From Vibrio splendidus (GTDB taxonomy: Bacteria; Pseudomonadota; Gammaproteobacteria; Enterobacterales; Vibrionaceae), in NCBI RefSeq assembly GCF_024347615.1, contig NZ_AP025508.1, positions 1,798,001-1,862,000 on the forward strand: a stretch of DNA of 64,000 nt. Direction: 5' to 3'. Positions 40,481-60,041 of this stretch are shown here, piece by piece. Position 1 is the first letter of the stretch. Each line of letters begins with the position of its first letter. Below the pieces are notes generated by a model, which was not told where the DNA came from, ran no database searches, and saw only the letters and a list, made by a program, of their open reading frames with translations. Position numbers and translations under genes: made by a program.

Positions 40481-41089
40481 ATGGATATAAAGGCTAAAAT
40501 GCACAGCCAAGACGTTTACTACTGTGACGACGTTGATTTGGTTGCTGAGCAAACTCAATGCTTAGAAGTGCTATACGATTTCAACCATACTCGCCCGAGC
40601 GAAGGTGATAAACGACAACAAATCATGAAGCAGTTGTTCGCCGAAGTCGGTGAGGGCTGCTACATTGAACCACCATTACATGCGAACTGGGGGCGTCACA
40701 CGCACCTAGGCAACAACGTATACGTGAACTTTAATCTAACTCTGGTCGACGACACAGACGTATTCATCGGCGACAACGTGATGATAGCGCCTAACGTGAC
40801 CATTGCCACTGGCACACATCCCATCAGCCCAGAACTCAGGCTAAAAGCAGCGCAGTTCAATGTTCCCGTTCGTATTGGTAACAACGTATGGCTTGGCGCG
40901 CACACAGTCGTACTTCCCGGTGTCACCATTGGTGAAAACTCAGTAATAGGCGCAGGCAGCATCGTCACCAAAGACATCCCAGCCAATGTCGTCGCAGTTG
41001 GCAACCCATGCAAAGTGATACGCGAAATCAACGAGAGCGACCGAGAGTATTACCACAAAGATCGCCGCATTCCAGATGAACTAAAGTAG
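40481..41089 (+). CDS. Sugar O-acetyltransferase (maltose/galactoside type)
   Basis: Left-handed parallel beta-helix acetyltransferase of 202 residues. It has the N-terminal helical cap, the hexapeptide repeats from GCYIEPPLHANWG onward, the catalytic His in GTHPISPELR, and the closing IGAGSIVTKDIPANVVAVGNPCKVIREI. It acetylates a sugar or nodulation-type factor with acetyl-CoA; the exact acceptor is unknown. Length matches LacA/Maa (about 185-203). Confidence 0.92.
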   Translation: MDIKAKMHSQDVYYCDDVDLVAEQTQCLEVLYDFNHTRPSEGDKRQQIMKQLFAEVGEGCYIEPPLHANWGRHTHLGNNVYVNFNLTLVDDTDVFIGDNVMIAPNVTIATGTHPISPELRLKAAQFNVPVRIGNNVWLGAHTVVLPGVTIGENSVIGAGSIVTKDIPANVVAVGNPCKVIREINESDREYYHKDRRIPDELK

Positions 41090-41123
41090 GCGGTTTTTCA
41101 CACGCCTGAAATTAGCTGTGACA

Positions 41124-41148
41124 TAAGCCATTGTTATGCAATGGCTTA
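41124..41148. terminator. Perfect 10-bp hairpin after the acetyltransferase
   Basis: TAAGCCATTG and CAATGGCTTA pair around a 5-base loop. No T-run follows. It could end the acetyltransferase transcript or be the palindromic arm of a lost recombination site; GTTAGGC stands at 41228, 22 bp ahead of the next gene. Confidence 0.5.
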
Positions 41149-41249
41149 GTTGCATATTACTTGTGCATCTTAGAAACTAGACAGAATTAATCAGTATTCA
41201 GGTACAGAATTTTTCTGTCTAATAGCAGTTAGGCTACAAGGAAAAGTAT

Positions 41250-41828
41250 ATGAACGAAACAGTGGAAGTTTATCCCAAACAATATGAATCGATATTGAAA
41301 GCCACACTCGCAATGGGCTTTCCGCAATTATCAGAACTTCCGATAGGTTCATTTTTAGCTGCTTTAGCTGCGAGTAAGCAATCAGGGTACTTGTTAGAGC
41401 TTGGGACTGGTACTGGTCTATGTACGTCGTGGATATTGCATGGAATGTCAACAGATTCCAAATTAACAACGGTGGATAATTCGGTAGAAAATATTGATAT
41501 AGCTCGTCGTTATCTGGGGGCAGATCCGCGAATTGATATTGTTTTATCGAATGGTGAAGATGTTATTGATCGAACCTCGCCATTGTCGGTTGACTTGATA
41601 TTTGCTGATACTTGGCCAGGTAAATACCACTACCTAGATGAGGCGCTAGCTTGTCTTAAAATTGGTGGCTTCTATATCATAGATGATATGCAAATTCGTT
41701 CGGATTGGTCAGAAGAGCATAATGAAAAGGTACGTGAGTTGATTGAGCAATTAACACAGCGGGATGATCTTGTTGTTGCAAAGCTTTGTTGGTCAACAGG
41801 CATAGTTATGTGCGTAAAAGTAGCCTAA
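41250..41828 (+). CDS. Class I methyltransferase, O-methyltransferase-like
   Basis: SAM-dependent methyltransferase of 192 residues. Motif I is LLELGTGTGLCTSWI near residue 49, followed by LTTVDNSVENIDIARRYLG, then LIFADTWPGKYHYLDEAL and a GGFYIIDDM strand. The pattern suits O-methyltransferases of the catechol/caffeoyl type, including the D-D pair for metal binding. AAGG is upstream. Its final codons and stop overlap a decayed attC site, as in a gene cassette. Confidence 0.85.
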   Translation: MNETVEVYPKQYESILKATLAMGFPQLSELPIGSFLAALAASKQSGYLLELGTGTGLCTSWILHGMSTDSKLTTVDNSVENIDIARRYLGADPRIDIVLSNGEDVIDRTSPLSVDLIFADTWPGKYHYLDEALACLKIGGFYIIDDMQIRSDWSEEHNEKVRELIEQLTQRDDLVVAKLCWSTGIVMCVKVA

Positions 41829-41919
41829 CAAAGCCTCTAAATCTGATTCGTAAACGCGTGCCGAACTCGCTCCGATCAAACATGGCACACGTTCACTCAA
41901 AGCTTAAGGCAGCGTTATA
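41823..41919 (+). repeat. Degenerate attC (VCR-like) site
   Basis: GCCTAAC at 41823 and a GCGTTAT core at 41912 bound an imperfect palindrome. Inner arms are AACGcGTGCC and GGCACaCGTT. It begins in the last codons of the methyltransferase gene and ends 20 bp before the deaminase start, the position of a cassette junction. Confidence 0.75.
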
Positions 41920-41938
41920 GCGCTCGATAAAATTGAAT

Positions 41939-42355
41939 ATGGATGGTCATAATATCGAAAGAGAGCTTTATCAAGCAGCAGTAGAACTAGTAAAGGTTCG
42001 GTATCCATCAGGTTGGGGTGGCGCAGCGGCTGTTCGAACAGATTCAGGAAAAATATTAACAAGCATTGCTCCTGATACTAAAAATGATGCTCTTTCACTA
42101 TGTATGGAAGTGGGGGCGTATTTAGAGGCTCACAAACTCAATGAGCGAGTGACCCACTCGTTATGCCTGTGTCGTGAAAGCGAGAACGATGAGTTTTTAA
42201 TCTTGTCACCATGCGGAGTTTGCCAAGAGCGCCTTGTCCATTGGGGTGGGGATGTTAAAGCAGCAATTACGACTCCAGATAATTCATTGGTTTTTAAAAC
42301 TATACGTGAACTAATGCCTCACCATTGGTCACTGGTAAACGGTAAAGCACTATAG
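41939..42355 (+). CDS. Cytidine/blasticidin-S deaminase-like protein
   Basis: Zinc-dependent nucleoside deaminase fold, 138 residues. The catalytic motif is CMEVGAYLEA (C-x-E in place of H-x-E, as in tetrameric cytidine and blasticidin deaminases) and the zinc pair is SPCGVCQERL. It could salvage pyrimidines or detoxify a nucleoside antibiotic. Start taken at ATG 41939; a TTG at 41933 is in frame. Its TAG stop is inside the 5' end of the next attC-like site. Confidence 0.85.
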   Translation: MDGHNIERELYQAAVELVKVRYPSGWGGAAAVRTDSGKILTSIAPDTKNDALSLCMEVGAYLEAHKLNERVTHSLCLCRESENDEFLILSPCGVCQERLVHWGGDVKAAITTPDNSLVFKTIRELMPHHWSLVNGKAL

Positions 42356-42457
42356 CAAACCGTTTAAGATTGATTCACAATACGTGGCATTTTTACTATG
42401 CGTTGCGCTTAGTGGTTAAGGTGGTATTACGTTGATCACCACTTAAGCGGGCATCAT
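42351..42457 (+). repeat. Degenerate attC, close to Vibrio VCR
   Basis: This is the clearest VCR relic. It starts tatagcaaaccgtttaag, contains gattcacaatacgtggcat and actatgcgttgcg, and ends cacttaagcgggcatcat. The outer cores have decayed (TAGCAAA for TAACAAA, GGGCATCAT for GGGCGTTAT), so it is probably not a substrate now. Confidence 0.85.
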
Positions 42458-42581
42458 CCCCCTGTAATTCTTCGTGAGTAAAAGCAACTACCATATCTAG
42501 TCTTAATAGTTTGTTTAGGTTCACGGTGCCTTTCTTAACTATTTGGTAGAGTGACATTTCAATGAGCATGGAGGTTTTGTA

Positions 42582-42716
42582 ATGGGAACTGTAATCGGTT
42601 TGGTGATTCTAGCTGCTATAGATTTGTATCTTGTTCGTAAAACAGGGCTTCATATTCATAAATGGATCTCTAAAAAGTATGCCGCGTATCTGTCGGATAA
42701 GGGAAACAAAAAATAG
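42582..42716 (+). CDS. 44-residue single-span membrane protein
   Basis: Starts at 42582 after a GGAGG ribosome site. It has one hydrophobic segment (about residues 2-18) followed by a basic tail. It is in the plus-strand cassette run after an attC relic. Function unknown; small membrane proteins are common in cassette arrays. Confidence 0.65.
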   Translation: MGTVIGLVILAAIDLYLVRKTGLHIHKWISKKYAAYLSDKGNKK

Positions 42717-42794
42717 CCTTTTCTTATTAAGTCATCGGTATAAAAAACGTTATCTGCTATTCATTTTACACACATTGCAAAGATTGGAGGATTC

Positions 42795-43208
42795 ATGAAA
42801 GGTAAAGGAAAGTGCCTATGTGGCTCGGTTGAGTTGGAAGTAGAGTACGCCAGTAATGAATTGGGGGCTTGTCATTGTAGTATGTGTAGAAATTGGTCTG
42901 GCGGTCCGATGTTAGTCATTGATTGCGCTGACTCAGTTAAAATATCAGGTGAATCAAATGTAGTGAGATATAAGTCATCCGAGTGGGCTGAGAGAGGATT
43001 CTGCGGTAAATGTGGTACTCACTTGTTTTACTTTTTAGTGCCAAATAATCAGTATCATCTTCCTGTCGGTTTATTGATGTCTGGGGATGACTACAAATTA
43101 ACTCATCAGATATTTATCGATGAAAAGCCCGAATACTACGAATTTAAAAATGAAACACAAAATATGACTGGCGCAGAAGTATTTGCCCACTTTGAAAGTG
43201 GAGAGTAG
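42795..43208 (+). CDS. GFA-family (formaldehyde-activating-enzyme-like) protein
   Basis: Protein of 137 residues with the zinc-binding pattern of the GFA family: KCLCGSVELEV, CHCSMCRNWSGG and FCGKCGTHLFY. GFA proteins include glutathione-dependent formaldehyde-activating enzymes and many of unknown activity. A short EDDYKLTHQIFIDEKPEYYEF-like region follows the zinc fold. A TTGGAGG ribosome site precedes the ATG. Catalysis here is not certain. Confidence 0.88.
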   Translation: MKGKGKCLCGSVELEVEYASNELGACHCSMCRNWSGGPMLVIDCADSVKISGESNVVRYKSSEWAERGFCGKCGTHLFYFLVPNNQYHLPVGLLMSGDDYKLTHQIFIDEKPEYYEFKNETQNMTGAEVFAHFESGE

Positions 43209-43327
43209 CACTTAGTTTTTATTAGCTTAAGACTAATTCACAACGCTCGGCATTTTTTAGTTTCGGTCGAGTTTTGTGTTTGCGGTGTAATGGTTTCGGT
43301 TAGGTGGTGCTCACGCCTAACATCCCA
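43208..43327 (+). repeat. Degenerate attC (VCR-like)
   Basis: Contains gcttaagactaattcacaa, the gctcggcattttttag loop side and ggtggtgctcacgcctaac. It fills the gap between the GFA gene and a small membrane-protein gene. Core sites are decayed. Confidence 0.75.
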
Positions 43328-43437
43328 GCATCAACCCCCAACTTGAAGTGCCTCGAAACTCGATTATGTGAACTCCTAATAGCTGAATAGTTACTCTAAT
43401 ATACAATGAGTTTTCTAATGGCTCTGAGGGGGCGGAA

Positions 43438-43689
43438 ATGACAGATATGGCAATATCAAGTTACCTTGGCTGGTTGTTACTTATTATAGGTTGTTATCCT
43501 TTCTTGCTTGTTGGTGTCAGTATGTTTTTCTATGATGCAGAGCGTAAACAAGCATTAAGGTGGTTGAACGGAGTTAGTTTTCTATTGGCTGCATTCCTTC
43601 TTTACATGCACATGCAGACAGAAGTCATCTATGGTCGGGAACTGCTCGAAGCTTGGTATCGTGATAACCCAGAAGATAGGCCTCAATAA
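43438..43689 (+). CDS. Two-span small membrane protein
   Basis: Protein of 83 residues with two hydrophobic segments (about 8-32 and 43-60) and a charged C-terminal tail ending in a cytoplasmic-looking DNPEDRPQ. A GAGGGGG ribosome site precedes the ATG. No family recognised. Typical of cassette cargo; the gene lies between two attC relics. Confidence 0.65.
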   Translation: MTDMAISSYLGWLLLIIGCYPFLLVGVSMFFYDAERKQALRWLNGVSFLLAAFLLYMHMQTEVIYGRELLEAWYRDNPEDRPQ

Positions 43690-43694
43690 AAAGC

Positions 43695-43840
43695 ACATAA
43701 CAAGTGTTTGTCATCCATTTCGGTATATAAAAATGATGCTAAACGATTGGCATTTCCAGCTAGAATCAACTTTAGTGTTTTCGGCACAATGGGTGAGGTG
43801 AGGTGATCGCGATGTCAGCTACTTCAAGCGGCGATAACTC
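43695..43840 (+). repeat. Degenerate attC (VCR-like)
   Basis: Starts cataacaagtgtttg, includes aaacgattggcatttcca and gtgttttcggcacaatggg, and ends cttcaagcggcgataac. It begins 6 bp after the previous stop, where a cassette junction should be. Confidence 0.7.
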
Positions 43841-43924
43841 GTCTATCCAATTATGCCTATCCGAGTGAACCATGTTCTCTTACAAAGTGTCTGACATTTT
43901 AGATATTCAAATGTCGAGGCTCCG

Positions 43925-44134
43925 ATGAATTTTCTCCGTAAGTATAAAATCAGTTTCCTTTTCTGCATTAGTGGTCTTTTGTGTTTCATTGCTTATAACA
44001 CCATAGGTTCATACGTAGATAAAAATGGTGTGTTGGTTGAGCCATTCGGGCTTATTCCTCTATTTTGGCTTTTTGAGCTACTTGCGTTGCTGGCTTTGGT
44101 TGTAGCCTTCGTTAGACACAGAAAGTGTCAGTAG
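43925..44134 (+). CDS. DUF3955-like small membrane protein
   Basis: Protein of 69 residues with two hydrophobic segments and the pattern GSYVDKNGVLVEPFGLIPLFWLF, which resembles DUF3955 proteins. Function is unknown for the family. It sits between two attC relics with its own GAGG ribosome site. Confidence 0.72.
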   Translation: MNFLRKYKISFLFCISGLLCFIAYNTIGSYVDKNGVLVEPFGLIPLFWLFELLALLALVVAFVRHRKCQ

Positions 44135-44167
44135 ACCAGTTAAGCTGCGAGTAAACGAAGATGTTTC

Positions 44168-44319
44168 GTTATCACAAACAACTTAGGCGCGATTCGGTAC
44201 GCTTGGCATTTTGGCATGCGCCGGTATTGGTGTTTCCACTCGTTTTAACTTCAGTGGGTTAGGTGTTAAATTTGAGAGCATTAGTAGCGTTGCCACCTGC
44301 TCAAGCGGGCGTTATGTTA
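44168..44319 (+). repeat. attC with a near-intact 3' end
   Basis: Begins gttatcacaaacaacttagg, contains gcttggcattttggcatgcg and gtgttaaatttgagag, and ends gctcaagcgggcgttatgtta. The 3' half keeps the VCR form. It ends 32 bp before the next start codon. Best candidate in the window for residual recombination. Confidence 0.85.
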
Positions 44320-44351
44320 CTAATTGAATTCAACGTTTATAAAGGATGAAT

Positions 44352-44828
44352 ATGGTAGTACTTAGAGGAATGCGCCAAGACGAATATCCAGCTTATTGTC
44401 AGTATTTTATTGACGATTACAGTCAGGAAATAGCTAGAAACTATGGGCATTCTTTAGACGTTGCAGTCAAATTGGCAAAGAAGGACTTGCATCGCAGCTT
44501 CCCTAACGGACTAGAGAGCAATGAGCATTCGCTATTATGCATTGATGTTGAAGTCGATGGTGAACGTAAGCTTGTGGGTTACCTTTGGCACTCAGTCAAT
44601 CTTGGGGATAAATCTACGTTTATCTATGACTTCTTCATTTCGAATGAACATCGAGGCCTAGGTTATGGTACTCAATCAATTTCTGCGTTAGAGACCCAAC
44701 TACTTGCTATTGGCATCAATCAAATAAAACTGAGGGTCGCATACCATAATGAGCGGGCGCTTAAGTTGTATAAAGAAGTTGGCTTTGAGGTTACCGGTTT
44801 CAATATGTCTAAGAAACTAAGCGGATAG
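44352..44828 (+). CDS. GNAT family N-acetyltransferase
   Basis: Acetyltransferase of 158 residues. DFFISNEHRGLGYGTQSI carries the acetyl-CoA loop R-G-L-G-Y-G, and VAYHNERALKLYKEVGFEVTG is motif B. The N-terminal part (RGMRQDEYPAYCQYFIDDY) looks like the phosphinothricin or streptothricin-type fold. ATG 44352 follows AAAGG; an in-frame ATG at 44346 is an alternative. Substrate unknown. Confidence 0.86.
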   Translation: MVVLRGMRQDEYPAYCQYFIDDYSQEIARNYGHSLDVAVKLAKKDLHRSFPNGLESNEHSLLCIDVEVDGERKLVGYLWHSVNLGDKSTFIYDFFISNEHRGLGYGTQSISALETQLLAIGINQIKLRVAYHNERALKLYKEVGFEVTGFNMSKKLSG

Positions 44829-44889
44829 CCTCAACATATCAAGCAACATACATAGACCGGCAGGTTTCATTCAAACATGGAGTGAAAAT

Positions 44890-45522
44890 ATGAAGTCAGA
44901 CTTTTCAAAACTTGCGACAACCGAGTACGGAAACATACTAAGTAACGACCACTTTATTAATTTTAGTATTGGTCCTCTTTGGCAGGGAATGCCGCCAATT
45001 TTTGGAGAAGCGTTTACTGTCCAGTTAACGTCTGGTGATAATTTAATGCTTCATTCAGCCATATACGAAGCACCAAAAGGTTCCATCATTGTAGTGGATG
45101 GAGTTGATAGCGAATATGCAGTAGCCGGCGGTAGTGTATGCGAAGTCGCTAAGAGTCGAGGTATCAAAGGTTTTATTATTGATGGTGTCATTCGAAATTT
45201 GAGTGAAATTTCAGATATGAAGTTTCCAGTTTTTGCGAAAGGTGTTCATCCAGTACCGGGAAAGAAAGAGGTCTATTCTGAATTGGGCGCTCCAATCGCT
45301 TGCGGGGGAGCAAAGGTGTCTACGGGAGATATCATTGTTGCTGATGCAGAGGGTATTGTCGTTATTCCTAAATCAAGAAAAGATGAAGTGTTTCTAATGG
45401 CTTCAAAGAAAGCAAGTGACGAAGCTTCATTAACACTCGCTGAGTGGGAAACGAGTCATAGGGCTAAAATAGCCCAAGCAATAACGTCTGCGAAACGAAA
45501 ATCTGAGAGCACTTTAAACTGA
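44890..45522 (+). CDS. RraA-like / HMG-aldolase family protein
   Basis: Protein of 210 residues of the RraA-like fold: GEAFTVQLTSGDNLMLHSAIYEA, VVDGVDSEYAVAGGSVCEVAKSRGIKGFIIDGVIRN, then VPGKKEVYSELGAPIACGGAKVSTGDIIVADAEGIVVIP. The family includes RNase E regulators and 4-hydroxy-4-methyl-2-oxoglutarate aldolases; the G-x-x-x-R/D ligands (GGSVCEVAKSRG, DGVIRN) favour an aldolase-type enzyme over pure RraA. Its C-terminus and stop overlap an attC-like remnant. Confidence 0.85.
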   Translation: MKSDFSKLATTEYGNILSNDHFINFSIGPLWQGMPPIFGEAFTVQLTSGDNLMLHSAIYEAPKGSIIVVDGVDSEYAVAGGSVCEVAKSRGIKGFIIDGVIRNLSEISDMKFPVFAKGVHPVPGKKEVYSELGAPIACGGAKVSTGDIIVADAEGIVVIPKSRKDEVFLMASKKASDEASLTLAEWETSHRAKIAQAITSAKRKSESTLN

Positions 45523-45570
45523 TTCGCAATGCGCGGCATTTTCATCAATTAACAGGTGTTAGGCGACAAC
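45510..45570 (+). repeat. Internally deleted attC remnant
   Basis: Contains actttaaactgattcgcaa, then gcgcggcattttcatcaa, and ends with a consensus GTTAGGC core at about 45558. It is 40-50 bp shorter than the other relics, so the loop arm is probably lost. It overlaps the RraA-like stop codon. Confidence 0.7.
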
Positions 45571-45584
45571 GAATAAATTCATCC

Positions 45585-46073
45585 ATGGAGAAGAGAGTGA
45601 TCGTACGGACTGCGACGAAAGAAGACTCAAGTGTCTTGTTAGAGTTTATTGAACAAAAAGCTGACTTTGACCGGAGTATGAGAGGGTTTAGTGGTGAAAT
45701 CTCGACAACTATAGAGAAAATCGAACGCACACTATTTGGTGATTACGCATTTGCTCATGCATTAATATTGGAACGGAATTGTGAGCCTTTTGGCTTCGCA
45801 CTGTATCACTATCGATATTCATCCTTCAGTGGAGAGCCATCAATCTGGCTTGACGACTTATTGGTTACAGGAAGTCAAAGATCAAAAGGGTATGGCCGTG
45901 AACTTATGTTGGCTTTAAAGTCACAAGCGGAGTCATCATATGCCTCTCACATCTTATGGACGGCAAGTCCACATAATAAGAAAGCGCATGATTTCTACAA
46001 AAGGTTGGGTGCAGAGGTTGAGCGAATGGATGGTCAAAGACCTTATTTCCGTTGGGCAATGTGCGATTCGTAA
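45585..46073 (+). CDS. GNAT family N-acetyltransferase
   Basis: Acetyltransferase of 162 residues related to the diamine/spermidine branch: EIS-like start, then PSIWLDDLLVTGSQRSKGYGRELM with the S-K-G-Y-G-R loop, and SPHNKKAHDFYKRLGAEVERM. Substrate could be a polyamine. The next gene starts directly after its stop. Confidence 0.86.
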   Translation: MEKRVIVRTATKEDSSVLLEFIEQKADFDRSMRGFSGEISTTIEKIERTLFGDYAFAHALILERNCEPFGFALYHYRYSSFSGEPSIWLDDLLVTGSQRSKGYGRELMLALKSQAESSYASHILWTASPHNKKAHDFYKRLGAEVERMDGQRPYFRWAMCDS

Positions 46074-46091
46074 ATGAATCAAAAGGGAACT

Positions 46092-46937
46092 ATGAAAATA
46101 ACGACGCTGGTTGATAACTCTCGACTGGATAACAGGAAAGATTTAGCCGTTGAGCGCGGACTATCACTGCATATTGAAACTGAATCGCTAAAGATCTTGT
46201 TCGATATGGGAAGTGGCGATACGTTTTGTCAAAACGCACCAGTACTGGGTATTGATATCAAAGATGTAGACCTCGCTGTCATATCACACAGGCATCATGA
46301 TCATTGTAATGGCACCGCTGATTTTGTTGCTCATAACTCTAAATCCAAAGTGTTTCTGAAAAATTGCGAACAGAAAAGCTATCATTTCCGGGCTTTCGGT
46401 TTCAAAAGTGATGTCGGGATCAATCCGGACTTACTAGAAAACAGCAACGAGCGGTTAGTCTTCGTTAATCGTACGACTGAGATCGCCCCAAATGTCTTTG
46501 CTATCACAGATATTAGCGTGAAACACGAACAACCTAAGGGTAATAAATACCTTTATACACAGTCGGAAAATCGACGGGAGCGCGACTCATTTGATCATGA
46601 ATTACTGTTAGTGATTAAAGAGCCAGATGGTTTAGTTATATTCACGGGATGTGCGCATAGTGGCGTTCTTAATATGGTTGATACAGCGGTTACTCTGTTC
46701 CCAGGAGAGAGAATAAAAGCGGTTGTCGGGGGCTTCCATCTAGTGGGCTTACCATTGTTCAATAGTATTGGTGGCACAAAGCAAGACATTAGAGATCTTG
46801 GATTGACGTTGTCTCAATACCCCATTGATAAACTGTATACAGGGCACTGCACAGGCAAGAAAGCTTATGACCTGTTGAAAGAAGTATTAGGCAAGCGTCT
46901 GGAAGCAATGCCGACAGGTCGGCGTATTCATGTGTAG
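46092..46937 (+). CDS. Metallo-beta-lactamase-fold hydrolase
   Basis: Protein of 281 residues of the MBL fold (COG1237-like). It starts KITTLVDNSRLDNRKDL, has the metal site SHRHHDHCNGT, and later GCAHSGVLN and a C-terminal YTGHCTG. No beta-lactamase residues are visible, so a phosphodiesterase or dihydropterin-pathway-like role is more likely. ATG 46092 is chosen over 46074. It follows the GNAT gene with 18 bp and probably shares its transcript. Confidence 0.84.
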   Translation: MKITTLVDNSRLDNRKDLAVERGLSLHIETESLKILFDMGSGDTFCQNAPVLGIDIKDVDLAVISHRHHDHCNGTADFVAHNSKSKVFLKNCEQKSYHFRAFGFKSDVGINPDLLENSNERLVFVNRTTEIAPNVFAITDISVKHEQPKGNKYLYTQSENRRERDSFDHELLLVIKEPDGLVIFTGCAHSGVLNMVDTAVTLFPGERIKAVVGGFHLVGLPLFNSIGGTKQDIRDLGLTLSQYPIDKLYTGHCTGKKAYDLLKEVLGKRLEAMPTGRRIHV

Positions 46938-46975
46938 CGTTGGTCAAACCTTAGATGGATGTTAGTTAGGTCACG

Positions 46976-47533
46976 ATGAATAAACAAAAACTAAAGAACC
47001 TCATTCAACAAGTTCCTGAGCTAATCGAAACAGCCAAAGTATGTCGTGAGGTGGGCTTGCCAAACTTCTATATTGCAGGCGGTGCTATCACGCAAATCAT
47101 CTGGAATGATATCGAAAACAAACCGCTTCTAGACCAAGTCAAAGACTTCGATGTTGTCTATTTCAATAGTACCTCAGCTATCAATGAAGATGAGTTCAAA
47201 AACCGCATTCGTTCGCGGTTAAGTCATTGTGTCGACGTGGACGTAAAGAACCAAGCGACCATTCATGAGCATTACGCTAAGAAGTTTGGTTGCTTCATTC
47301 AACCATACGATCGTGTTGAACAAGGTATCGAGTCTTGGCTCTCTGCATTTACTATCGGGTTTACTTTGAATGATTCAGGCGGCATCAAGTTGTTTGCCCC
47401 ATACGGTGTAGAGGACGCTTTTGATATGCTGATTAAGCCGAATAAGCGAGCAATGACAGAAGTAAATTACAACAAAATGACCACTGGTTATAAGGCTCGA
47501 TGGCAGCAAGTAAAAGTGCTTCCTTGGAATTGA
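46976..47533 (+). CDS. Nucleotidyltransferase-fold protein (DUF925 type)
   Basis: Protein of 185 residues with FYIAGGAITQIIWN (the G-G-x-x-x nucleotidyl-transferase start) and KDFDVVYFN carrying a D-x-D, then DVDVKNQATIHEHY. It matches the uncharacterised NTP-transferase family of DUF925. A GTTAGGT core-like sequence lies directly ahead of the start. Activity and acceptor are unknown. Confidence 0.85.
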   Translation: MNKQKLKNLIQQVPELIETAKVCREVGLPNFYIAGGAITQIIWNDIENKPLLDQVKDFDVVYFNSTSAINEDEFKNRIRSRLSHCVDVDVKNQATIHEHYAKKFGCFIQPYDRVEQGIESWLSAFTIGFTLNDSGGIKLFAPYGVEDAFDMLIKPNKRAMTEVNYNKMTTGYKARWQQVKVLPWN

Positions 47534-47647
47534 TCTATAAAGCTTTGTGGGATTGCTCTTAACATTGGGTATTTAATTCAGTTTGGCGTCAGTGGTAAAT
47601 TTGAATCTAGTCTCAGCATTGTTAGTGACTTAGTTGTACGTTATGTG
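47534..47647 (+). repeat. Degenerate attC (VCR-like)
   Basis: The gap holds gctttgtgggattgctctta, then ggtatttaattcagtttgg and gttagtgacttagttg, and ends tacgttatgtg. It keeps VCR-like phrases but has lost the outer palindrome. It starts at the nucleotidyltransferase stop and ends 26 bp before the CsaA start. Confidence 0.65.
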
Positions 47648-47672
47648 ATTTGGAAATAACGAGGTCTGGTTT

Positions 47673-48026
47673 ATGAAATACGCTCCAATTAAAGATGAAA
47701 TTACGTTTGATGATTTCGCAAAATTAGATATTCGTGTCGGCTTAATCGTAAAGGTTTCTGAAGTCGCTAAATCAGATAAGCTGATGAAACTCACCGTCGA
47801 CTTTGGCGATCATCAGCGATCAATCTTGGCTGGCATTAAACAAGAGCGAGAAAACCCGAAAGAAATCGAAGGCAAGCAAGCTTTGTTTGTTGTGAACTTG
47901 CCTGAAAGAAAGATGGCGGGTGAAGTGTCTCAAGGGATGTTGTTTGATATTGGTTATGAAGACAAATTAAATCCGTGTTTAGCTTGTCCTGAAACCGAAA
48001 TGCCTAATGGTGCTCGAGCTGGGTAA
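47673..48026 (+). CDS. CsaA-like tRNA-binding protein
   Basis: OB-fold protein of 117 residues. TFDDFAKLDIRVGLIVKVSEV, GDHQRSILAGIKQ, LFVVNLPERKMAGEVSQGM and the ending PNGARAG match the EMAPII/MetRS C-terminal domain family. CsaA has chaperone-like activity in Bacillus, but tRNA binding is the more general activity. Length fits a dimeric stand-alone form. Confidence 0.87.
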   Translation: MKYAPIKDEITFDDFAKLDIRVGLIVKVSEVAKSDKLMKLTVDFGDHQRSILAGIKQERENPKEIEGKQALFVVNLPERKMAGEVSQGMLFDIGYEDKLNPCLACPETEMPNGARAG

Positions 48027-48122
48027 CGTACACATAAACGTGAACAATAATGTAAGACGGAATAACGCGTATCTTAACTTAAAGCGAACATCATAGATGG
48101 AACACAAAACAGGGTACAAGAG

Positions 48123-48380
48123 ATGAAAGCTGGTACGCCAAGAGATTATAGCGAAGACATGTATAACGTTTATTTTGAAGTTGGAGAGTGGGAAGGAACG
48201 GCTCTCAGCATACTTGAGTCGTTTGTTGGTCAGTCACCGTCAACGTCTATTTCACATTTGGAGTTTGGGTATGAACTTGCGATGCCTATCCAATGTGTAC
48301 CAGATCTCGTGAGGCTTTTGACTGAGAAAAATATCGCTATTTATCAGATCGTACGTGGTAACAAAATACTAGAGTCATAA
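48123..48380 (+). CDS. Hypothetical 85-residue protein
   Basis: Small soluble protein, no family recognised. It reads as alpha/beta: YSEDMYNVYFEVGEWEGT, then LEFGYELAMPIQCVPDLVRLLTEKN, and a final basic segment. The frame is well formed and the coding style matches its neighbours. It lies between the CsaA gene and an attC-like fragment. Confidence 0.6.
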   Translation: MKAGTPRDYSEDMYNVYFEVGEWEGTALSILESFVGQSPSTSISHLEFGYELAMPIQCVPDLVRLLTEKNIAIYQIVRGNKILES

Positions 48381-48411
48381 AGATATTGGTCGAAGTAGAA
48401 CAGTGAATTAA

Positions 48412-48460
48412 TCGAGATTGATTCGTTATACATGGCATTAATCGTTGAAGGTTGGATTTC
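48412..48460 (+). repeat. Short attC-like fragment
   Basis: gagattgattcgttatacatggcattaatcg carries the VCR-internal gattcgt and ggcatt words. Both ends are lost. It precedes the first of two tandem NUDIX genes. Confidence 0.5.
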
Positions 48461-48478
48461 TTTCTTAAGGAGTTTTAA

Positions 48479-48895
48479 GTGAGTCAGGAAGTAAGAGCAG
48501 GTGTAGCTGCGGTTATTCTACGTGAAGGACGAGTACTACTTGGAGAACGAATTGGTTCTCATGGGGCTCATACATGGGCAACGCCGGGCGGACACCTTGA
48601 GTGGGGTGAAAGTATCGAAGAGTGTGCCAAACGCGAAACACTCGAAGAGACTGGCTTAGTTGTTAGTGCATTTGAGAAGCTGACTTTTACCAATGATATT
48701 TTTGAGAAAGAGAACAAGCACTATATAACGCTGTTTGTTGTTGCTTCTGACGCTAGCGGCGAACCACAGATAACAGAACCTGATAAATGTAAGCAATGGA
48801 AATGGTTTAAGCTAGATGAGTTACCTGAGCCACTGTTTCTTCCTCTGACGAATCTGTTGAGCGATCCGGTCATCCTTGGGAAGCTAGCGCAGTAA
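48479..48895 (+). CDS. NUDIX hydrolase (MutT/NudC-like)
   Basis: NUDIX protein of 138 residues. Box is GGHLEWGESIEECAKRETLEETGLV, which matches G-x5-E-x7-R-E-x-x-E-E-x-G-U. A preceding GERIGSHGAHTWATP is typical of the dCTP/UDP-type nucleotide hydrolases. GTG start after AAGGAG. It is followed 25 bp later by a second NUDIX gene. Confidence 0.88.
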   Translation: MSQEVRAGVAAVILREGRVLLGERIGSHGAHTWATPGGHLEWGESIEECAKRETLEETGLVVSAFEKLTFTNDIFEKENKHYITLFVVASDASGEPQITEPDKCKQWKWFKLDELPEPLFLPLTNLLSDPVILGKLAQ

Positions 48896-48920
48896 ACGCG
48901 AATGATTGGAGGGCACATCA

Positions 48921-49358
48921 ATGAGAGCACCTTTTCAGGTTTTAGTCTTTCCCTACAAAACAGTCGATAACAAATATCGATTTTTAATCGCACGCAGAAG
49001 GGACAATGGTGTTTGGCAGGCAATATCGGGTGGTGGCGAAGACAATGAGTCATTACTTGAAGCAGCAAAACGAGAGCTCTCTGAAGAGACTCAGCTAGTC
49101 GGTTGTAATTGGCAGTTGCTCGATTCAATGTGCATGCTTCCAAAAGTCTTTTATGCAGGAAATCACAATTGGACTGAGCATCCATTCGTAATTCCTGAGC
49201 ATTCCTTCTCAGTTAAAGTGACGGAAGATCCTCAATTATCAAATGAACACACAGATTACCGTTGGTGTGACTACCAAGAAGCTATTGAACTTCTAACATA
49301 TGACTCGAACAGAAACGCGCTTTGGGAGATCAACGAAAGGCTTTACAAAGCTAGCTAA
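48921..49358 (+). CDS. NUDIX hydrolase (second of a tandem pair)
   Basis: NUDIX protein of 145 residues with SGGGEDNESLLEAAKRELSEETQL, a box whose final Gly is Gln. It resembles dihydroneopterin-triphosphate-type or RppH-like members, but residue patterns outside the box do not decide. ATG 48921 follows TTGGAGGG; TTG 48906 would be inside that site. Not obviously duplicated from the preceding gene. Confidence 0.86.
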   Translation: MRAPFQVLVFPYKTVDNKYRFLIARRRDNGVWQAISGGGEDNESLLEAAKRELSEETQLVGCNWQLLDSMCMLPKVFYAGNHNWTEHPFVIPEHSFSVKVTEDPQLSNEHTDYRWCDYQEAIELLTYDSNRNALWEINERLYKAS

Positions 49359-49445
49359 AGTACACAGATTAATTAACTCTATATTAGAGTGGAAATCCTG
49401 ATTAGATTCTTACTAATCTCTCGCTATTTAGTGAATAGGTAAATC

Positions 49446-49853
49446 ATGACATTACGAGTAGTTCCAGAGCTTTATTGTTTCGATATTAATGTGAGCAAAT
49501 CCTTCTTTGTCGATGTGTTGGGGTTTGAAGTGAAATACGATCGCCCAGATGAAGAGTTTGCTTATCTAACGCTTGATGGTGTTGATGTGATGCTTGAAGG
49601 GATTGCGGGCAAAAGTCGAAAATGGCTTTCAGGTGATCTGGAGTTTCCGCTAGGGCGTGGTGTTAACTTCCAATGGGATGTTATCGATATCGAACCTCTA
49701 TATCAGAGAGTTAACGAAAGCGCCGCTGATTCTATTTACTTAGCGTTAGAGTCGAAGTCTTATCAATGTGGTGATTCGATCGCGACTCAGAAGCAGTTCA
49801 TCGTTCAAACTCCAGACGGTTATCTCTTTAGGTTCTGCCAAGATATTCATTAA
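49446..49853 (+). CDS. Bleomycin-resistance-type VOC protein
   Basis: VOC-fold protein of 135 residues: VPELYCFDINVSKSFFVDVLGFEVKYD and a final IVQTPDGYLFRFCQDI. The pattern is that of dimeric Ble-like drug-binding proteins that sequester bleomycin-class compounds. Whether this one binds any drug is unknown. Its place in a cassette run suits a resistance-type function. Confidence 0.85.
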   Translation: MTLRVVPELYCFDINVSKSFFVDVLGFEVKYDRPDEEFAYLTLDGVDVMLEGIAGKSRKWLSGDLEFPLGRGVNFQWDVIDIEPLYQRVNESAADSIYLALESKSYQCGDSIATQKQFIVQTPDGYLFRFCQDIH

Positions 49854-49932
49854 ATCATGACCTTGTGGTTGGATACCAAATACTGGTCTTTGCTCGAGAT
49901 TATTGGATAGACTAAACGTATTAACTGAGTAC

Positions 49933-49972
49933 TAAGGTTGCATTGCTCACGCCCCAGTAATGCGTTATACAA
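49933..49972 (+). repeat. attC 3'-end fragment
   Basis: ggttgcattgctcacgccc followed by agtaatgcgttatacaaa matches the closing part of a VCR. It ends 33 bp ahead of the DUF2000 gene. The 5' half of the gap (49854-49932) has no clear palindromic partner. Confidence 0.6.
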
Positions 49973-50004
49973 ATACTGTGATTAAGAATGAATGAGGATA
50001 TGTA

Positions 50005-50436
50005 GTGAGCCATTTACCAGACGAAAGCCAAAAACGATTCATAGCGGTTTTAAGCAAAAAGATGGATTTAGGAAGAACATTGAACGTGCTAGGGCACTTG
50101 AGCGTTGGCCTATCTAATCAATTAGAAAGTGACGAGACTTGCTACGTTGACTATGAAGACTTGGATGGCAATGTCCACCCTAATTTATCTCATTACCCTT
50201 TCATCGTGCTGAAAGCAGACAACTCAAATAAGCTTAGAAAAGTGCGTGAAGAAGCCTTCAGCCGTGGTATTAAATTTACCGATTTTACGAGCTCAATGAT
50301 CGAAGGTGGTTCTGTTGAGCAGCAGCAACGAACCAAAGAAACCAAAGAAGAAGACCTTGAGTATCTTGGTGTATGCCTGTTTGGTGACACGGAAATCCTG
50401 CGTGAGTTTACAAAGAAGTTTAGCTTGTATAAGTAA
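50005..50436 (+). CDS. DUF2000 family protein
   Basis: Protein of 143 residues: RFIAVLSKKMDLGRTLNVLGHLSVGLSNQL, then SHYPFIVLKADNSNKLRKVREEAF and LEYLGVCLFGDTEILREFTKKFSLYK. This is the DUF2000 fold, which is related to peptidyl-tRNA hydrolase 2 but has unknown function. GTG start after GAGGA. Confidence 0.85.
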   Translation: MSHLPDESQKRFIAVLSKKMDLGRTLNVLGHLSVGLSNQLESDETCYVDYEDLDGNVHPNLSHYPFIVLKADNSNKLRKVREEAFSRGIKFTDFTSSMIEGGSVEQQQRTKETKEEDLEYLGVCLFGDTEILREFTKKFSLYK

Positions 50437-50658
50437 ATGTCCGTATTACCTATAAATTAATAACACTATTAATGCTTAGTCTTCGAGATCAAACTTAGAT
50501 TTGCTGCTTTGGTTTGAAGCATTTATGTAGTTATTGCTCTCGGATTATTAAGAATCTGAACAAGAGTTTTAATTGAGCTCACAAATTAAAACTGTATGTA
50601 TGTACATGCCTTTCTTTTGGTATATCATCCCTCGATTTTTCAATCATTGAGTCATAAA

Positions 50659-51579
50659 ATGACGAATCATTTAGAACCAGGCATTAAAGATCTAGTCGAA
50701 GACTTCCAATCCAATGGTAAACCTTGCCCATCACTCCAAACCATCGAAGAGCGACGTACTGGCTATATTGGCAGTACCGTTTTAGCGGGGAAGAGTCCTA
50801 AAATAGAACACGAATTCTTAGATGCATTAAATGGTGTGCAGATAAAAGTTTATAAGCCTACGACCGAATCGAATCTACCTATCACAGTGTACTTCCACGG
50901 TGGTTGCTTTATCAGCGGTGGCTTTGAAACACATGATGTTCAATTAAGACAGATTGCCCTTCAATCTAACTCAATTGTTATTTGCATCAAATATAGACTG
51001 GCACCTGAGCATACATATCCAGCGGCGCACGACGATGTGTATCAAGCTGTACTTGGTATCAAGGAGTTTGGTCGCAAATATGGTGGCAATATCGAACAAA
51101 TGGCGTTTGTTGGTGATAGTGCCGGTGGGCAATTAGCGTTGGCGACAACATTGAGACTAAAAAAGTATGAGTCTTGGTTACCGAGCCAGCAAATTCTTAT
51201 CTATCCGATGCTAGATCCTAAAGGAAGTTCACGCAGTTACGTGGAAAATGGCACAAACTATATTATAACGGCAAACATGTTGCTTTCCGGCTTCGAGTTA
51301 TACACAAATAATAAATCTAATGCATTCAATGAGCCTGAACTCAACCTTTTGAACTGTGATTTTAACGGACTGCCAACGACAACCATCATCACTGCCGAGT
51401 TCGATCCATTACGTGACGAAGGCGAACAGCTCTATAAGTTAATGGTGTCGCAAGGTGTTGATGCTAGTTGCCAGCGCTATTCGGGTGTAATCCATGGTTT
51501 CTTTCAGTTATCGGGTGTTAGTCAATCAGCAAAGCATTGTGTTGAGTTAATTTCAAAAAAATTGATGACTCGAAATTAA
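50659..51579 (+). CDS. Alpha/beta hydrolase, HSL-type esterase
   Basis: Carboxylesterase of 306 residues. The oxyanion motif is YFHGGCFISGG, the nucleophile elbow GDSAGGQLAL, the Asp in TAEFDPLRDEGEQLY and the His in VIHGFFQL. The motif order is that of hormone-sensitive-lipase-type esterases. No signal peptide from the ATG at 50659; the frame starting at 50596 has an odd N-terminus and is rejected. Confidence 0.9.
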   Translation: MTNHLEPGIKDLVEDFQSNGKPCPSLQTIEERRTGYIGSTVLAGKSPKIEHEFLDALNGVQIKVYKPTTESNLPITVYFHGGCFISGGFETHDVQLRQIALQSNSIVICIKYRLAPEHTYPAAHDDVYQAVLGIKEFGRKYGGNIEQMAFVGDSAGGQLALATTLRLKKYESWLPSQQILIYPMLDPKGSSRSYVENGTNYIITANMLLSGFELYTNNKSNAFNEPELNLLNCDFNGLPTTTIITAEFDPLRDEGEQLYKLMVSQGVDASCQRYSGVIHGFFQLSGVSQSAKHCVELISKKLMTRN

Positions 51580-51610
51580 AATTATAGATAGTACAATTAG
51601 TTATGGTTAA

Positions 51611-51645
51611 TCTGGACGCTGTGTATATCTCAATTAGCGCCAGAT
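51611..51645. terminator. Hairpin after the esterase gene
   Basis: TCTGGaCGCT and AGCGcCAGA pair around a loop of about 16 bases. No T-run follows. It could be a 3'-end structure or an attC arm remnant. Confidence 0.4.
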
Positions 51646-51705
51646 AGACCTTATTTAAGACTCAATTATTATAAGACAATCGGTTAATCTATAGATAGGA
51701 AGTCA

Positions 51706-52125
51706 ATGGAATACCAATTAGATATCGAGCCCTCCGATGACGACATTAATGAAGTCCGAGGCGGGTTAATCAAACACAACACACCGTTTCTCGAAGGGAT
51801 ACCCAAGTCTCAAGTTGCGTACTACGCGATGGTGGAAGGCAACAAAGTTGGTGGTATTGTCGCTGATCTTTGGGGAAACTGGTTACTGATTAAGTTTCTC
51901 TGGGTCGATGATTCGATGAGAGGAAAGCAAGTCGGCAGTAAACTACTTAAGCGTATTGAAGAGTATGCACAGTCTCAAGGCTGTACGTCGTCATTGGTCG
52001 ATACATTAAGTTTCCAAGCCAAACCTTTCTATGAGAAACGAGGGTATGAATGCCAGGTGGTGTTAGAAAATTACCCTGTAGATTCCTCGCTATCGTTTCT
52101 CACCAAGTCGCTCGTCAAAAAGTAG
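51706..52125 (+). CDS. GNAT family N-acetyltransferase
   Basis: Acetyltransferase of 139 residues. The acetyl-CoA loop is DSMRGKQVGSKLLKRIE and motif B ends FYEKRGYECQ. It has the shape of small GNATs of the Gcn5-like type, e.g. with a VDTLSFQAKPFYEKRGY tail. Substrate unknown. Its stop is 2 bp ahead of an attC-like fragment. Confidence 0.85.
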   Translation: MEYQLDIEPSDDDINEVRGGLIKHNTPFLEGIPKSQVAYYAMVEGNKVGGIVADLWGNWLLIKFLWVDDSMRGKQVGSKLLKRIEEYAQSQGCTSSLVDTLSFQAKPFYEKRGYECQVVLENYPVDSSLSFLTKSLVKK

Positions 52126-52126
52126 C

Positions 52127-52151
52127 GTATTAAGCGCCCGTTTATACAAGG
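52127..52151 (+). repeat. attC 3'-end fragment between two GNAT genes
   Basis: gtattaagcgcccgtttatac followed by aagg resembles VCR ending taagcgggcgttatac. It overlaps the ribosome site of the next gene, which starts at GTG 52160. Confidence 0.55.
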
Positions 52152-52159
52152 AGAGTAGA

Positions 52160-52594
52160 GTGGTCAACATTCGGGAAATGGCAATTTCAGACTACGACTC
52201 AGTGATTGCGTTGTGGTGCCAGACAGAAGGCATGAGTATTCGAGGTGCCGATTCGAAAGAAAGCATTGCGAGCTATTTAGATCGTAACCCCGGTCTGAGT
52301 TTTGTGGCTGAAAGTAACAACGAGATCATTGGCGCTGTGTTAGTCGGAACGGATGGACGTCGTGGGTATTTACAACATTTAGCTGTCTCGGCCAACTTTA
52401 GAGGGCAAAAGTTAGGTTGTAAGCTTGTCGCAGAGGCGGTCAACGCCCTTGCAGGGTTAGGCATCCCGAAGACCCACTTGTTTGTCTATAACGACAACAT
52501 CAATGCTCAACAGTTTTACGAAAAGTTGGGCTGGTTTCCTCGCGATGAAGTTCGAATGTACTCGTTTAATAGCTCGGATAATAGTAACGTTTAG
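52160..52594 (+). CDS. GNAT family N-acetyltransferase (RimI-like)
   Basis: Acetyltransferase of 144 residues. The core is LQHLAVSANFRGQKLGCKLV (loop R-G-Q-K-L-G) and YNDNINAQQFYEKLGWFPRDEVRMYSF. It resembles the YpeA/RimI group that acts on small molecules or N-termini. GTG start after AAGGAGAG. It follows the previous GNAT by 34 bp but is not a close copy of it. Confidence 0.85.
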   Translation: MVNIREMAISDYDSVIALWCQTEGMSIRGADSKESIASYLDRNPGLSFVAESNNEIIGAVLVGTDGRRGYLQHLAVSANFRGQKLGCKLVAEAVNALAGLGIPKTHLFVYNDNINAQQFYEKLGWFPRDEVRMYSFNSSDNSNV

Positions 52595-52683
52595 CCTTAA
52601 AGGTTCGCGCTGGCTGAGCTTTAATTTGTAACAGGTTCGCGCGCATACGCCCAATATCAAAACAATCTTTGGAGTATTTAGAA

Positions 52684-53040
52684 ATGTTGTTTTCTAGTCT
52701 GTCTAAACCATTGGTTCATGGCTCCGAGTTATGTTCTGAACTGCTCAACTTCTTAACCGAGCATAAACGTGAATTCGAAGAAAAGTTAATCCCTGATCTG
52801 TCATACATCGATGATATGGCACATGTGGTGAACGGTATCAAAATCAAAGACGTTCTACACATCAACGCGAATCAATACCGACTTCAATATTCGTTTGATT
52901 GGGAGCTGTTTCTAGGATGTTCAGATAGGAACGAAACCGGTGTAGAGAATGGAAGTGTTCTATTCACTCTTGAGGACGATAACGTTCTTAATATCAACTT
53001 CCCAAACTACGGTTCTCGAGACACTAGCGATGAGCTTTAG
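52684..53040 (+). CDS. Hypothetical 118-residue protein
   Basis: Soluble protein, no family recognised. It begins with a short hydrophobic stretch (LFSSLSKPLVHGSE) and then an acidic helix, then a beta-rich C-terminal half (QYRLQYSFDWELFLGCSD). ATG 52684 lies 8 bp after GGAG; TTG 52669 would be part of the ribosome site. Real gene by codon style and spacing. Confidence 0.6.
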   Translation: MLFSSLSKPLVHGSELCSELLNFLTEHKREFEEKLIPDLSYIDDMAHVVNGIKIKDVLHINANQYRLQYSFDWELFLGCSDRNETGVENGSVLFTLEDDNVLNINFPNYGSRDTSDEL

Positions 53041-53076
53041 TCGGTTTTTCGTGCGTGTTATACAGAAGGAACAACA

Positions 53077-53547
53077 ATGATAACTATCGAAAGGCTTGAA
53101 GAATCCCATGTGGCGTCAGTTCAGGCCATCCAACTCGCCGATGAACAGGTTAAGTTCGCTGGTACAGCTGCAGAGTTTTTATTAGACGGCAGTGAAACGA
53201 CGCACTTGCACGTGATTAAGTCTGATCACGAAATTGTTGGTTTCTTTAAGCTGGATATCGCTTACGCAGAGCACTACCAATTCTGCCCTGAAGGAAGCAT
53301 TGGGCTAAGAGCTTTTGTGCTTGATAAAAACCAGCAAGGTAAAGGTTTAGGAACTGGCACGGTCAAAGCTTTGTTTCCATATTTAAAAGCGAATTACTCA
53401 GCGTATCAGTCGATTTACTTAACTGTGAATTGCAAAAATCCCGCAGCATTTAACTGTTATCAGAAAGGCGGCTTCGAAGATACCAATGAACAGTATTTAG
53501 GTGGCGCAGCAGGCCCGCAATTTATCATGCGCGGTCGAATTGCTTAG
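53077..53547 (+). CDS. GNAT family N-acetyltransferase
   Basis: Acetyltransferase of 156 residues. GLRAFVLDKNQQGKGLGTGTVKAL bears the Q-G-K-G-L-G loop, and LTVNCKNPAAFNCYQKGGFEDT is motif B. C-terminal MRGRIA. AGAAGGA precedes the ATG. A GTTATAC core-like word lies at 53057, 20 bp ahead of the start, as at other cassette junctions here. Confidence 0.86.
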   Translation: MITIERLEESHVASVQAIQLADEQVKFAGTAAEFLLDGSETTHLHVIKSDHEIVGFFKLDIAYAEHYQFCPEGSIGLRAFVLDKNQQGKGLGTGTVKALFPYLKANYSAYQSIYLTVNCKNPAAFNCYQKGGFEDTNEQYLGGAAGPQFIMRGRIA

Positions 53548-53635
53548 TAATATGAAACCGATTAATTGTTGATGGGACACTCCTGAACAGCTATATGCAG
53601 GTTGAGAGTCTTAAAGAACACGAAAAGGAAATTTG

Positions 53636-53980
53636 ATGAAGGTTCAATATCTTGAAGTGGTTACCCCAGAAGTCGATGTTGTTTGTGCAACATACGCTCA
53701 GCTCTACAACGTGAAGTTCAGTGGTGCAGATGTAAACCTTGGTGGGGCGCGCACTGCAAAGCTATCTAATGGCGGGGTAATTGGCATTCGAGCACCGCTT
53801 CGTGAAACTGAAAACCCAACTGTTCGTCATTACACGCTGGTTGAGGATATTCAGTCTGCAGTAAATGCAGCCGAGAAACTAGGTGCCGAAGTCGTGGTGC
53901 CGCCAATGGAGTTACCACGTCACGGCATGTGTGCCATTGTTATTCAAGGTGGCGTCGAGCTCGGGTTCTGGCAATTATAA
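53636..53980 (+). CDS. Glyoxalase-like VOC protein
   Basis: VOC-fold protein of 114 residues: VQYLEVVTPEVDVVCATYAQLYNVKF and a final IVIQGGVELGFWQL. A cofactor-free dehydratase or binding role is possible. ATG 53636 follows AAAGGAA; TTG 53633 is part of the leader. The downstream 119 bp to the next VOC gene has no gene or palindrome. Confidence 0.8.
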   Translation: MKVQYLEVVTPEVDVVCATYAQLYNVKFSGADVNLGGARTAKLSNGGVIGIRAPLRETENPTVRHYTLVEDIQSAVNAAEKLGAEVVVPPMELPRHGMCAIVIQGGVELGFWQL

Positions 53981-54099
53981 ATGATGTATACCTTTTTGAT
54001 TGTGACGGACGAGATACTACGATTTATGATGCGACACCTAGTGTCTTTGTCAGCTTCATGGCATCATTCGACGCAGCTAAAACCCCAACAAGGTATGTT

Positions 54100-54516: not shown

Positions 54517-54568
54517 AAAAGCTTAACCCACAACCTTAATTCTAGTCATACGGATATGCAGGAGCGAC

Positions 54569-54988: not shown

Positions 54989-55077
54989 TAATAATAAGCT
55001 AAGTAATAACAACCATGGCAATCACAAGCGATGCAATTACAACAAGGGTCATCAAGTCGGGAGTTTAAACCGAGAAT

Positions 55078-55485: not shown

Positions 55486-55551
55486 CGCTTTTCTTTCGTT
55501 GGGTTAACCCTCCGCACCGCTAAATCACAACTTAAGTTAAGGAAGCTCATC

Positions 55552-56133: not shown

Positions 56134-56255
56134 AAGTTAACTATCTTGCCAAGGAATGACAAAGAAGTTTCAACCTAACAACGTTTAAATTAAACTCGGG
56201 AATTCATAGTGTTACTTCAGCGTAGCAAGCCCATTGTTAAAGGAATAAGAACAAC

Positions 56256-56648: not shown

Positions 56649-56847
56649 ACTTCAAACGATACACGGTTACTCTTTTTGTTCTGCTATTGAACACCGCAAC
56701 GCCAATTAAAGTAGATGCATGACACATGGTATTATCTTGTGTCTCATTTCTTTCTAATAAAACTCTAATGGACAACAATAAGTTCGAGAACCGAGTGATA
56801 AGTTGTTAGTATGCATCAACTTTATAAATGTTAGTTGGCTTATATAA

Positions 56848-59086: not shown

Positions 59087-59125
59087 TCGCTGTCTTATGG
59101 GTTTTATCTGAATAGAGGAAGTCAT

Positions 59126-60016: not shown

Positions 60017-60041
60017 GTTTGTAAGTTTGGCTTAGGCAAAT

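Follow-up and report, generated by a model that had tools for sequence, protein, structure and literature searches.

How does an array of gene cassettes come to stand on a chromosome when the genome holds no recognisable integron integrase? Integrons are described as one integrase gene (intI), one attachment site (attI) and one array of cassettes. The question is raised by a stretch of 64,000 nucleotides, here called the window (G000:C1:1798001-1862000), from Vibrio splendidus, whose genome (G000) is 100% complete and consists of two chromosomes (C1, 3.87 Mb; C2, 2.01 Mb). An initial annotation of the window had recognised a fossil integron cassette array without integrase, and this description is supported. 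It had further proposed a cluster of attC sites lacking an integron integrase (CALIN), split off from the Vibrio superintegron, in a window without attI. Neither of these statements holds. The array has an attI of its own, which lies at the same place in most relatives, and four further attI copies occur in the genome. The locus is therefore probably one port of a multi-port chromosomal integron that would be served in trans. Genomes are designated below by G and loci by L.

An attI site at the head of the array

As had been stated in the initial annotation, no intI is present in the window. In the whole genome none was found over the cut-off either; the best match reaches 71 bits, compared with 265, and none reaches E ≤ 1e-40. 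The best weak matches are frames of 317 and 311 amino acids, read as XerC/XerD-like, and all 14 control genomes give equally weak matches of this type. A second type of integron integrase (E about 1e-114 to 1e-118) was observed in G095, G107, G228, G097 and G108. It contains an internal stop codon in G095 and G107, and its upstream regions differ among G095, G097 and G108.

The attI of the window is situated between an acetyltransferase gene, here called maa, and the first cassette (Table 1). Its homologues include the attI immediately adjacent to intI in V. splendidus 12E03, V. tasmaniensis, V. chagasii and other relatives, and it was aligned with nine such integrase-side sites in an alignment of 29 rows. 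The crossover is expected between G41228 and T41229. The core reads GCAGTT in place of GCTGTT, and its GTT is retained. The site consists of an inverted repeat (TAGACAGAA...TTCTGTCTA), found at 41166-41231 of the window and in the other copies. A CTG-N10-CAG box lies in the middle of most copies and is mutated in the window.

A DNA match to maa at E ≤ 1e-60 was found in 42 of 227 Vibrio genomes, G000 included, and the maa flank was examined in 27 of the other 41. The attI element is present at this place in 22 of the 27 relatives; it has been lost in L124 and L126, and L138-L140 have an unrelated flank. One of the elements, in L117, carries an internal deletion. Four further examined loci have no maa. 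The initial annotation had also raised the point of an integrase at this locus in relatives; what most of them share here is the attI element, the integrase is sometimes elsewhere, and a close IntI is confined to a class of loci described below. In these relatives conservation extends as far as the core, beyond which come varied first cassettes. Because conservation stops at the core, cassette 1 of the window is taken to start at position 41229.

The attC relics

Two attC covariance models were used, R1 built from 40 long sites and R2 from 12 short sites; both sets came from the attC of ten integrase-side arrays in relatives and were extracted by k-mer counts and folding. R1 was run on the window with filters off, and nhmmer and the reversed window served as further checks. 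The relics proved to be real, but fewer than the ten initially counted: six are clear, one is recognised by homology and two are weak. Five sites on the plus strand are strong, nhmmer is in accord with the models on these, and the R1 and R2 scans of the minus strand and of the rest of the window revealed nothing comparable. The top nhmmer score in the reversed window is 6.0 bits. Two candidates are at background, 48412-48488 (nhmmer 5.4 bits; R1 16.8 bits, E 0.077 at 48405-48519) and 49927-49968 (6.4 bits). At 50-52 kb no attC is detectable by the models, and an Rfam scan of the window gave zero family matches.

The sequence words quoted for the relics in the initial annotation are present at 42372-42452. 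Its statement that most core sites are mutated applies to four of the five near-full sites, three of which have neither core triplet and one of which (44168) has one, but the site at 41822 keeps both AAC and GTT. The overlap of attC with the preceding stop codon, said to occur at several sites, holds for the first two, where the stops at 41828 and 42355 fall inside the model matches starting at 41822 and 42349. Folding as a single strand, also suggested as a check, did not favour the sites: the bottom-strand folds of six relics are close to those of shuffled sequences (z −1.36 to +0.69), and an intact attC from another G000 array gives a z of −5.45. A functional attC should combine both R core triplets with a stable hairpin of the bottom strand, and none of the window relics does so.

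Further attI copies in the genome and the genus

A DNA search of G000 with the attI sequence identified sites at C1:1878k (E 3e-9), C1:2200k (E 6e-9), C2:269k (E 0.04) and C2:992k (E 0.07). The model search recovered at least five copies at E ≤ 1.3e-12, namely C1:1839k (the window), 1878k and 2200k, and C2:269k and 992k; at E ≤ 0.01 it gives at least ten matches, including reverse-strand matches of the palindromic site. Counts of attI and attC from such whole-genome model searches are lower bounds. None of the five copies has intI beside it. Four of them, those of the window, 1878k, 2200k and C2:269k, head attC arrays, and C2:992k has one weak attC (26 bits). At least 24 of the at least 33 attC matches in G000 (E ≤ 0.01) are found no more than 12 kb downstream of those four attI, on the same strand. 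Nine attC are single or paired and away from the listed attI (C1:839219, 1396351, 1396949, 1422089, 1423954, 1682900, 2774233 and 2866650; C2:477436), some of them strong (up to 105 bits). They would fit cassette insertion off target, at attG-like sites, elsewhere in the genome. As an origin of the window array such insertion is scarcely credible, since the attI homologue at its head is about 65 bp long, far beyond the length of an attG core.

That the locus is a CALIN cut from a superintegron by rearrangement is improbable. It does have attC relics with no integrase near, and at C1:2200k the similarity to the spacer between intI and attI ends about 180 bp short of the core, a pattern that would fit a lost integrase gene there. 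Against a cut fragment stand the attI at the head of the array and its recurrence at the maa place, and relatives with an integrase elsewhere (for example G105, G173, G097 and G244) carry this port too. C1:2200k was also considered as the old integrase place: apart from the spacer homology to about −180, the flank beyond intI finds no match, and an integrase scar at this site stays an inference.

In the genus, 227 Vibrio genomes were searched with the attI model at E ≤ 1e-12. The attI type occurs in at least 49 of them, with two or more copies in at least 37 and at least 135 copies overall. Only 16 of these copies lie within 0.4 kb of intI among the intI matches listed, the weak end of which falls beyond the list, and draft assemblies could separate attI from intI at contig ends. 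At most one integrase-adjacent copy was found per genome. Among 30 selected genomes, 26 have matches to the attI model, and the remaining four are outsiders with an intI of their own. Several ports on both chromosomes in relatives suggest that one integrase may serve many distant attI ports. In G198, four attI copies (C1:3511408, 3553673, 3583164 and 3625448) are in a mirror arrangement, two of them behind maa-type genes, which suggests a large inverted duplication.

Anatomy of the ports

A comparison was made of 70 attI loci, the window among them. Most of them group by their upstream sequence into place classes common to several species, and some stand alone. Downstream attC are found within 8 kb in 65 of the 70 loci, and in 61 of the 66 that belong to the six place classes. 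Loci at the same place were compared by gapped identity, for which unrelated sequence scores about 0.5. In all six classes the median is 0.79-0.96 over the 48 bp on the left side of the core, and 0.50-0.56 on the right side. Between classes, clear conservation is confined to the 62 bp that precede the core and to a repeat of 28 bp situated about 160 bp upstream; most else is near random. With a probe taken from one class A locus, the best of 67 decoys scores 8.0, and the upstream repeat exceeds this value in 58 of the 70 loci, in 55 of them at −149 to −163. The window attI is without this repeat. Because these two parts are conserved while the sequence between them is near random across classes, both look as if selection had acted on them as a recombination site well after the divergence of the ports.

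The conserved element might instead be a promoter or an operator of the LexA type, since the CTG-N10-CAG box of most copies resembles what we take to be a LexA operator, and a cassette promoter is expected at this position. With conservation ending where the varied cassettes begin, in all six classes, and with the best copies nearly identical to the attI beside intI, this explanation is very improbable.

A close IntI beside attI is found only in the integrase class (11 loci). At the 59 loci outside this class, neither a close IntI nor a piece of one was detected, in most cases over flanks of about 2.5 kb on the upstream and 8 kb on the downstream side; among the best two matches per locus, those of L135, L163 and L164 to recombinases are all distant (27-47% identity). 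This bears on the possibility that every port was once a complete integron and that all integrases but one were lost separately, with nothing acting in trans. The attI and upstream repeat at fixed spacing do look like parts of a whole platform, and loss of the integrase is common: of 31 genomes in which maa is matched at 80% or more, 19 have no intI at E ≤ 1e-40. Against it stand the negative result for IntI at the 59 loci and the first cassettes, which differ between related species, so that insertion seems to have continued there. We regard separate loss as unlikely.

Putative mobile elements are also present in ports. An element starting GAACTAAGCCGCTTCGCGGAGG lies, in near-identical form, directly at the attI core of L147, L135 and L164, which represent three genomes and as many port classes. 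It carries a 285-amino acid tyrosine-recombinase-like gene and a 368-amino acid gene, and is presumably of the IS91 type of insertion sequence (IS). Transposase genes, which we take to be IS110/IS1111-like, are present inside ports at G000:C1 about 1880.6-1881.6 kb (L047/L078), L183, L079 and L080, in blocks that are 95-100% identical within a genome.

Decay and exchange of cassettes

In 30 of 35 arrays with four or more sites, the attC score drops the further a site lies from attI. By class, this gradient is seen in 7/7 arrays for A (permutation p < 0.0004), 6/7 for B (0.010), 4/4 for C (0.064), 5/7 for D (0.065) and 8/10 for the integrase class (0.003). At the window place, the score drops in 13 of 15 loci with at least three sites. 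The first attC there has a median score of 73 in the 11 loci with the upstream repeat and 30.5 in the 12 without. The window port is among the most decayed of G000, in which three other ports still have attC that reach 109, 119 and 122 bits.

Exchange between ports was examined in 78 blocks shared within genomes, and only two of these were counted as clear cassettes. In G000 the 1878k and 2200k ports have their first cassette in common (97.3% over 437 bp). In G108 one cassette occurs twice, in first position at the integrase port and inside a chromosome-2 port (99.0% over 582 bp). The ports of the intI-bearing G140 have attC types and a diverged 384-bp cassette family in common. Sharing of attC types within genomes was found for 36 of 143 nearest neighbours, compared with a permuted mean of 8.7.

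The anatomy of the locus, the homology, copy number and place of its attI, the missing intI, the decay and the purifying selection on the genes (below) are computed results. That the integrase acts in trans and how events followed one another are inferred as most likely from these patterns. In splendidus-like Vibrio, several copies of one attI stand at conserved places on both chromosomes, and the integrase from one locus would insert cassettes in trans at distant attI, by attI × attC recombination at the G|TT core. The freshest cassettes would adjoin attI and older ones, further off, would be losing their attC. Insertion in trans would be the simplest mechanism, given the insertions at attIA in V. 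cholerae, which in the accessible part of the source number 24/24, 96/96 and 222/222, and 108/111 in a recA mutant (PMC8191803). The same source reports that the V. cholerae integrase is not active in other bacteria. In G000 the integrase gene would have gone, and the window port would also have lost its upstream repeat. Such a port would take up no new cassettes, its attC would erode or be deleted, and the genes that pay would remain as a compact string. With no upstream repeat, decayed attC and genes kept under purifying selection, the window port appears to be dying.

On balance we lean towards a wider proposal, a distributed integron in which one integrase would act in trans for two to seven ports on both chromosomes. 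Selection would keep the ports through repeated loss of intI, the port would be the lasting unit, and the window would show the death of one.

Several points weigh against this interpretation. What speaks for recombination between ports consists of patterns in the sequences. The decay gradients share ancestry, so that the arrays are not independent, and two of the 15 window-place loci, L121 and L125, run the opposite way. Without G140, attC-type sharing falls to 11/102 compared with 6.9, a value that 232 of 2000 permutations reach (not significant), and most of the 78 shared blocks are IS110-like, unassigned elements of 1.18 or 2.3 kb, or members of the G140 family. The association of repeat loss with low attC scores probably reflects a single deletion within one lineage, and L115 and L117 are without the repeat yet keep 64- and 82-bit sites. 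The GTT core has been lost in 5 of the 22 maa-side elements (L118, L119, L123, L125 and L127). One first cassette is common to L114, L119, L120, L121 and L123, and those of L118 and L127 look alike. Finally, 17 of the 37 multi-attI genomes have no intI at E ≤ 1e-40, several of them with good attI and attC. Because quick decay in the absence of an integrase fails to predict such sites, a recent loss of intI or a visiting integrase is needed.

Genes of the array

The features of the array are collected in Table 1. The genes of this region have a median ratio of nonsynonymous to synonymous substitution rates (dN/dS) of 0.03-0.42 (1 to 12 comparisons each), and their three left neighbours of 0.04-0.11. 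Because these ratios are low, the array genes are considered to be kept by purifying selection. The array had been described as now fixed; the retained genes fit this, but the gene content of the spot still differs between species, with a distance from maa to the start of nudB of about 2 to 15.6 kb.

Table 1. Position and nature of the features at the head of the window array
Feature	Position	Strand	Remarks
maa, acetyltransferase gene	40481-41089	+	conserved left neighbour anchoring the locus; name from reading the sequence alone
orphan attI	41166-41234	+	core GTTAGGC at 41228-41234; between maa and cassette 1
cassette 1	41229-41914	+	attI core to attC core; methyltransferase gene 41250-41828 (Pfam Methyltransf_3) and attC
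attC 1	41822-41921	+	short type; both core triplets kept; R2 56.9 bits, E 3.4e-12; R1 31.5 bits
cassette 2 gene	41933-42355	+	annotated as cytidine deaminase in two plasmid matches (89.8 and 90.8% DNA identity); Pfam none
attC 2 relic	42349-42460	+	both core triplets mutated; R1 60.8 bits, E 3.5e-12
cassette 3 gene	42795-43208	+	GFA family (PF04828)
attC 3 relic	43212-43335 (outer limits estimated)	+	model match 43230-43318; ends lost; R1 44.2 bits
cassette 4 gene	43438-43689	+	83 amino acids; Pfam none
attC 4 relic	43714-43840	+	both core triplets gone; R1 42.2 bits
cassette 5 gene	43925-44134	+	DUF3955 (PF13127)
attC 5 relic	44168-44318	+	right core GTT kept, left core lost; R1 23.0 bits over 44168-44265, 30.8 bits for the whole site; nhmmer 38.0 bits over 44174-44316
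GNAT acetyltransferase gene	44346-44828	+	PF00583
RraA-like gene	44890-45522	+	PF03737
attC 6 relic	45511-45570	+	internally deleted; nhmmer 15.1 bits over 45511-45544
probable attC 7 relic	47557-47659	+	by homology only, to weak attC matches in L051 and L053 (16.7 and 19.1 bits)

No attC was detected by R1 or nhmmer behind the GNAT gene. The internally deleted attC 6 has fuller counterparts at the same place in L048 (23.9 bits) and L049 (31.7 bits). Close relatives by the RraA-like protein (90-95% identity) are strains of V. splendidus, V. crassostreae, V. tasmaniensis and undescribed Vibrio. In V. qingdaonensis (L055) its gene is a cassette with a full attC behind it, and in L054 it lies directly behind another attI. 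After the loss of attC, genes are packed head to tail, as at 46073/46074. Gene-precise junctions were considered as a separate mechanism and dropped, as gene ends recur where the spacer attC has been lost between retained genes. The region 50000-63500 contains many small plus-strand genes, the presence of which varies among relatives, with no detectable attC; it could represent an older portion of the array in which erosion is complete.

Comparison with known systems

A literature search on attI away from an integrase found no orphan attI ports, in a coverage that mostly excludes subscription journals, and the accessible parts of PMC3108266, PMC11551772 and PMC2709254 contain no mention of extra attI sites. 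If the proposed reading is correct, arrays without an integrase are not all dead ends, and cassette expression is not bound to a single promoter-near position. Genomes scored as having no integron or a CALIN may then contain genuine capture sites. At the conserved places, anything from a dozen intact attC to none is seen across species, which provides a natural series from an array to an ordinary string of genes.

Of the parts of a complete integron, the locus has an attI and attC in one orientation (five strong sites, all on the plus strand) and lacks intI. For a cassette promoter Pc, the region 40900-42900 gives 6 promoter-like matches compared with a shuffle mean of 4.8, none of them on the plus strand upstream of cassette 1. 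It resembles the Vibrio superintegron (intIA, attIA and attC of the Vibrio cholerae repeat type) in the attI core, the attC type, the kinds of cassette genes and entry at attI. It differs in that several attI-headed arrays lie on two chromosomes, with at most one of them beside an integrase, and here none. The Delta-attI cassettes of mobile integrons, as far as the accessible text of PMC12901181 describes them, are similar in having attI-derived sites away from the usual place; those are pieces of attI at cassette ends in a mobile array, whereas here a whole attI heads each separate chromosomal array. With a CALIN, a term of IntegronFinder, the locus has in common a cluster of at least two attC without intI. 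The absence of attI, which that term implies with no formal rule, does not apply. The origins proposed for CALIN in the accessible part of PMC8618304 are off-target insertion, loss of intI and rearrangement, and a separate attI port is not among them. By the rule of an attC cluster without intI the locus is a CALIN; the attI at its head, a place conserved across the clade and its sister ports make it different.

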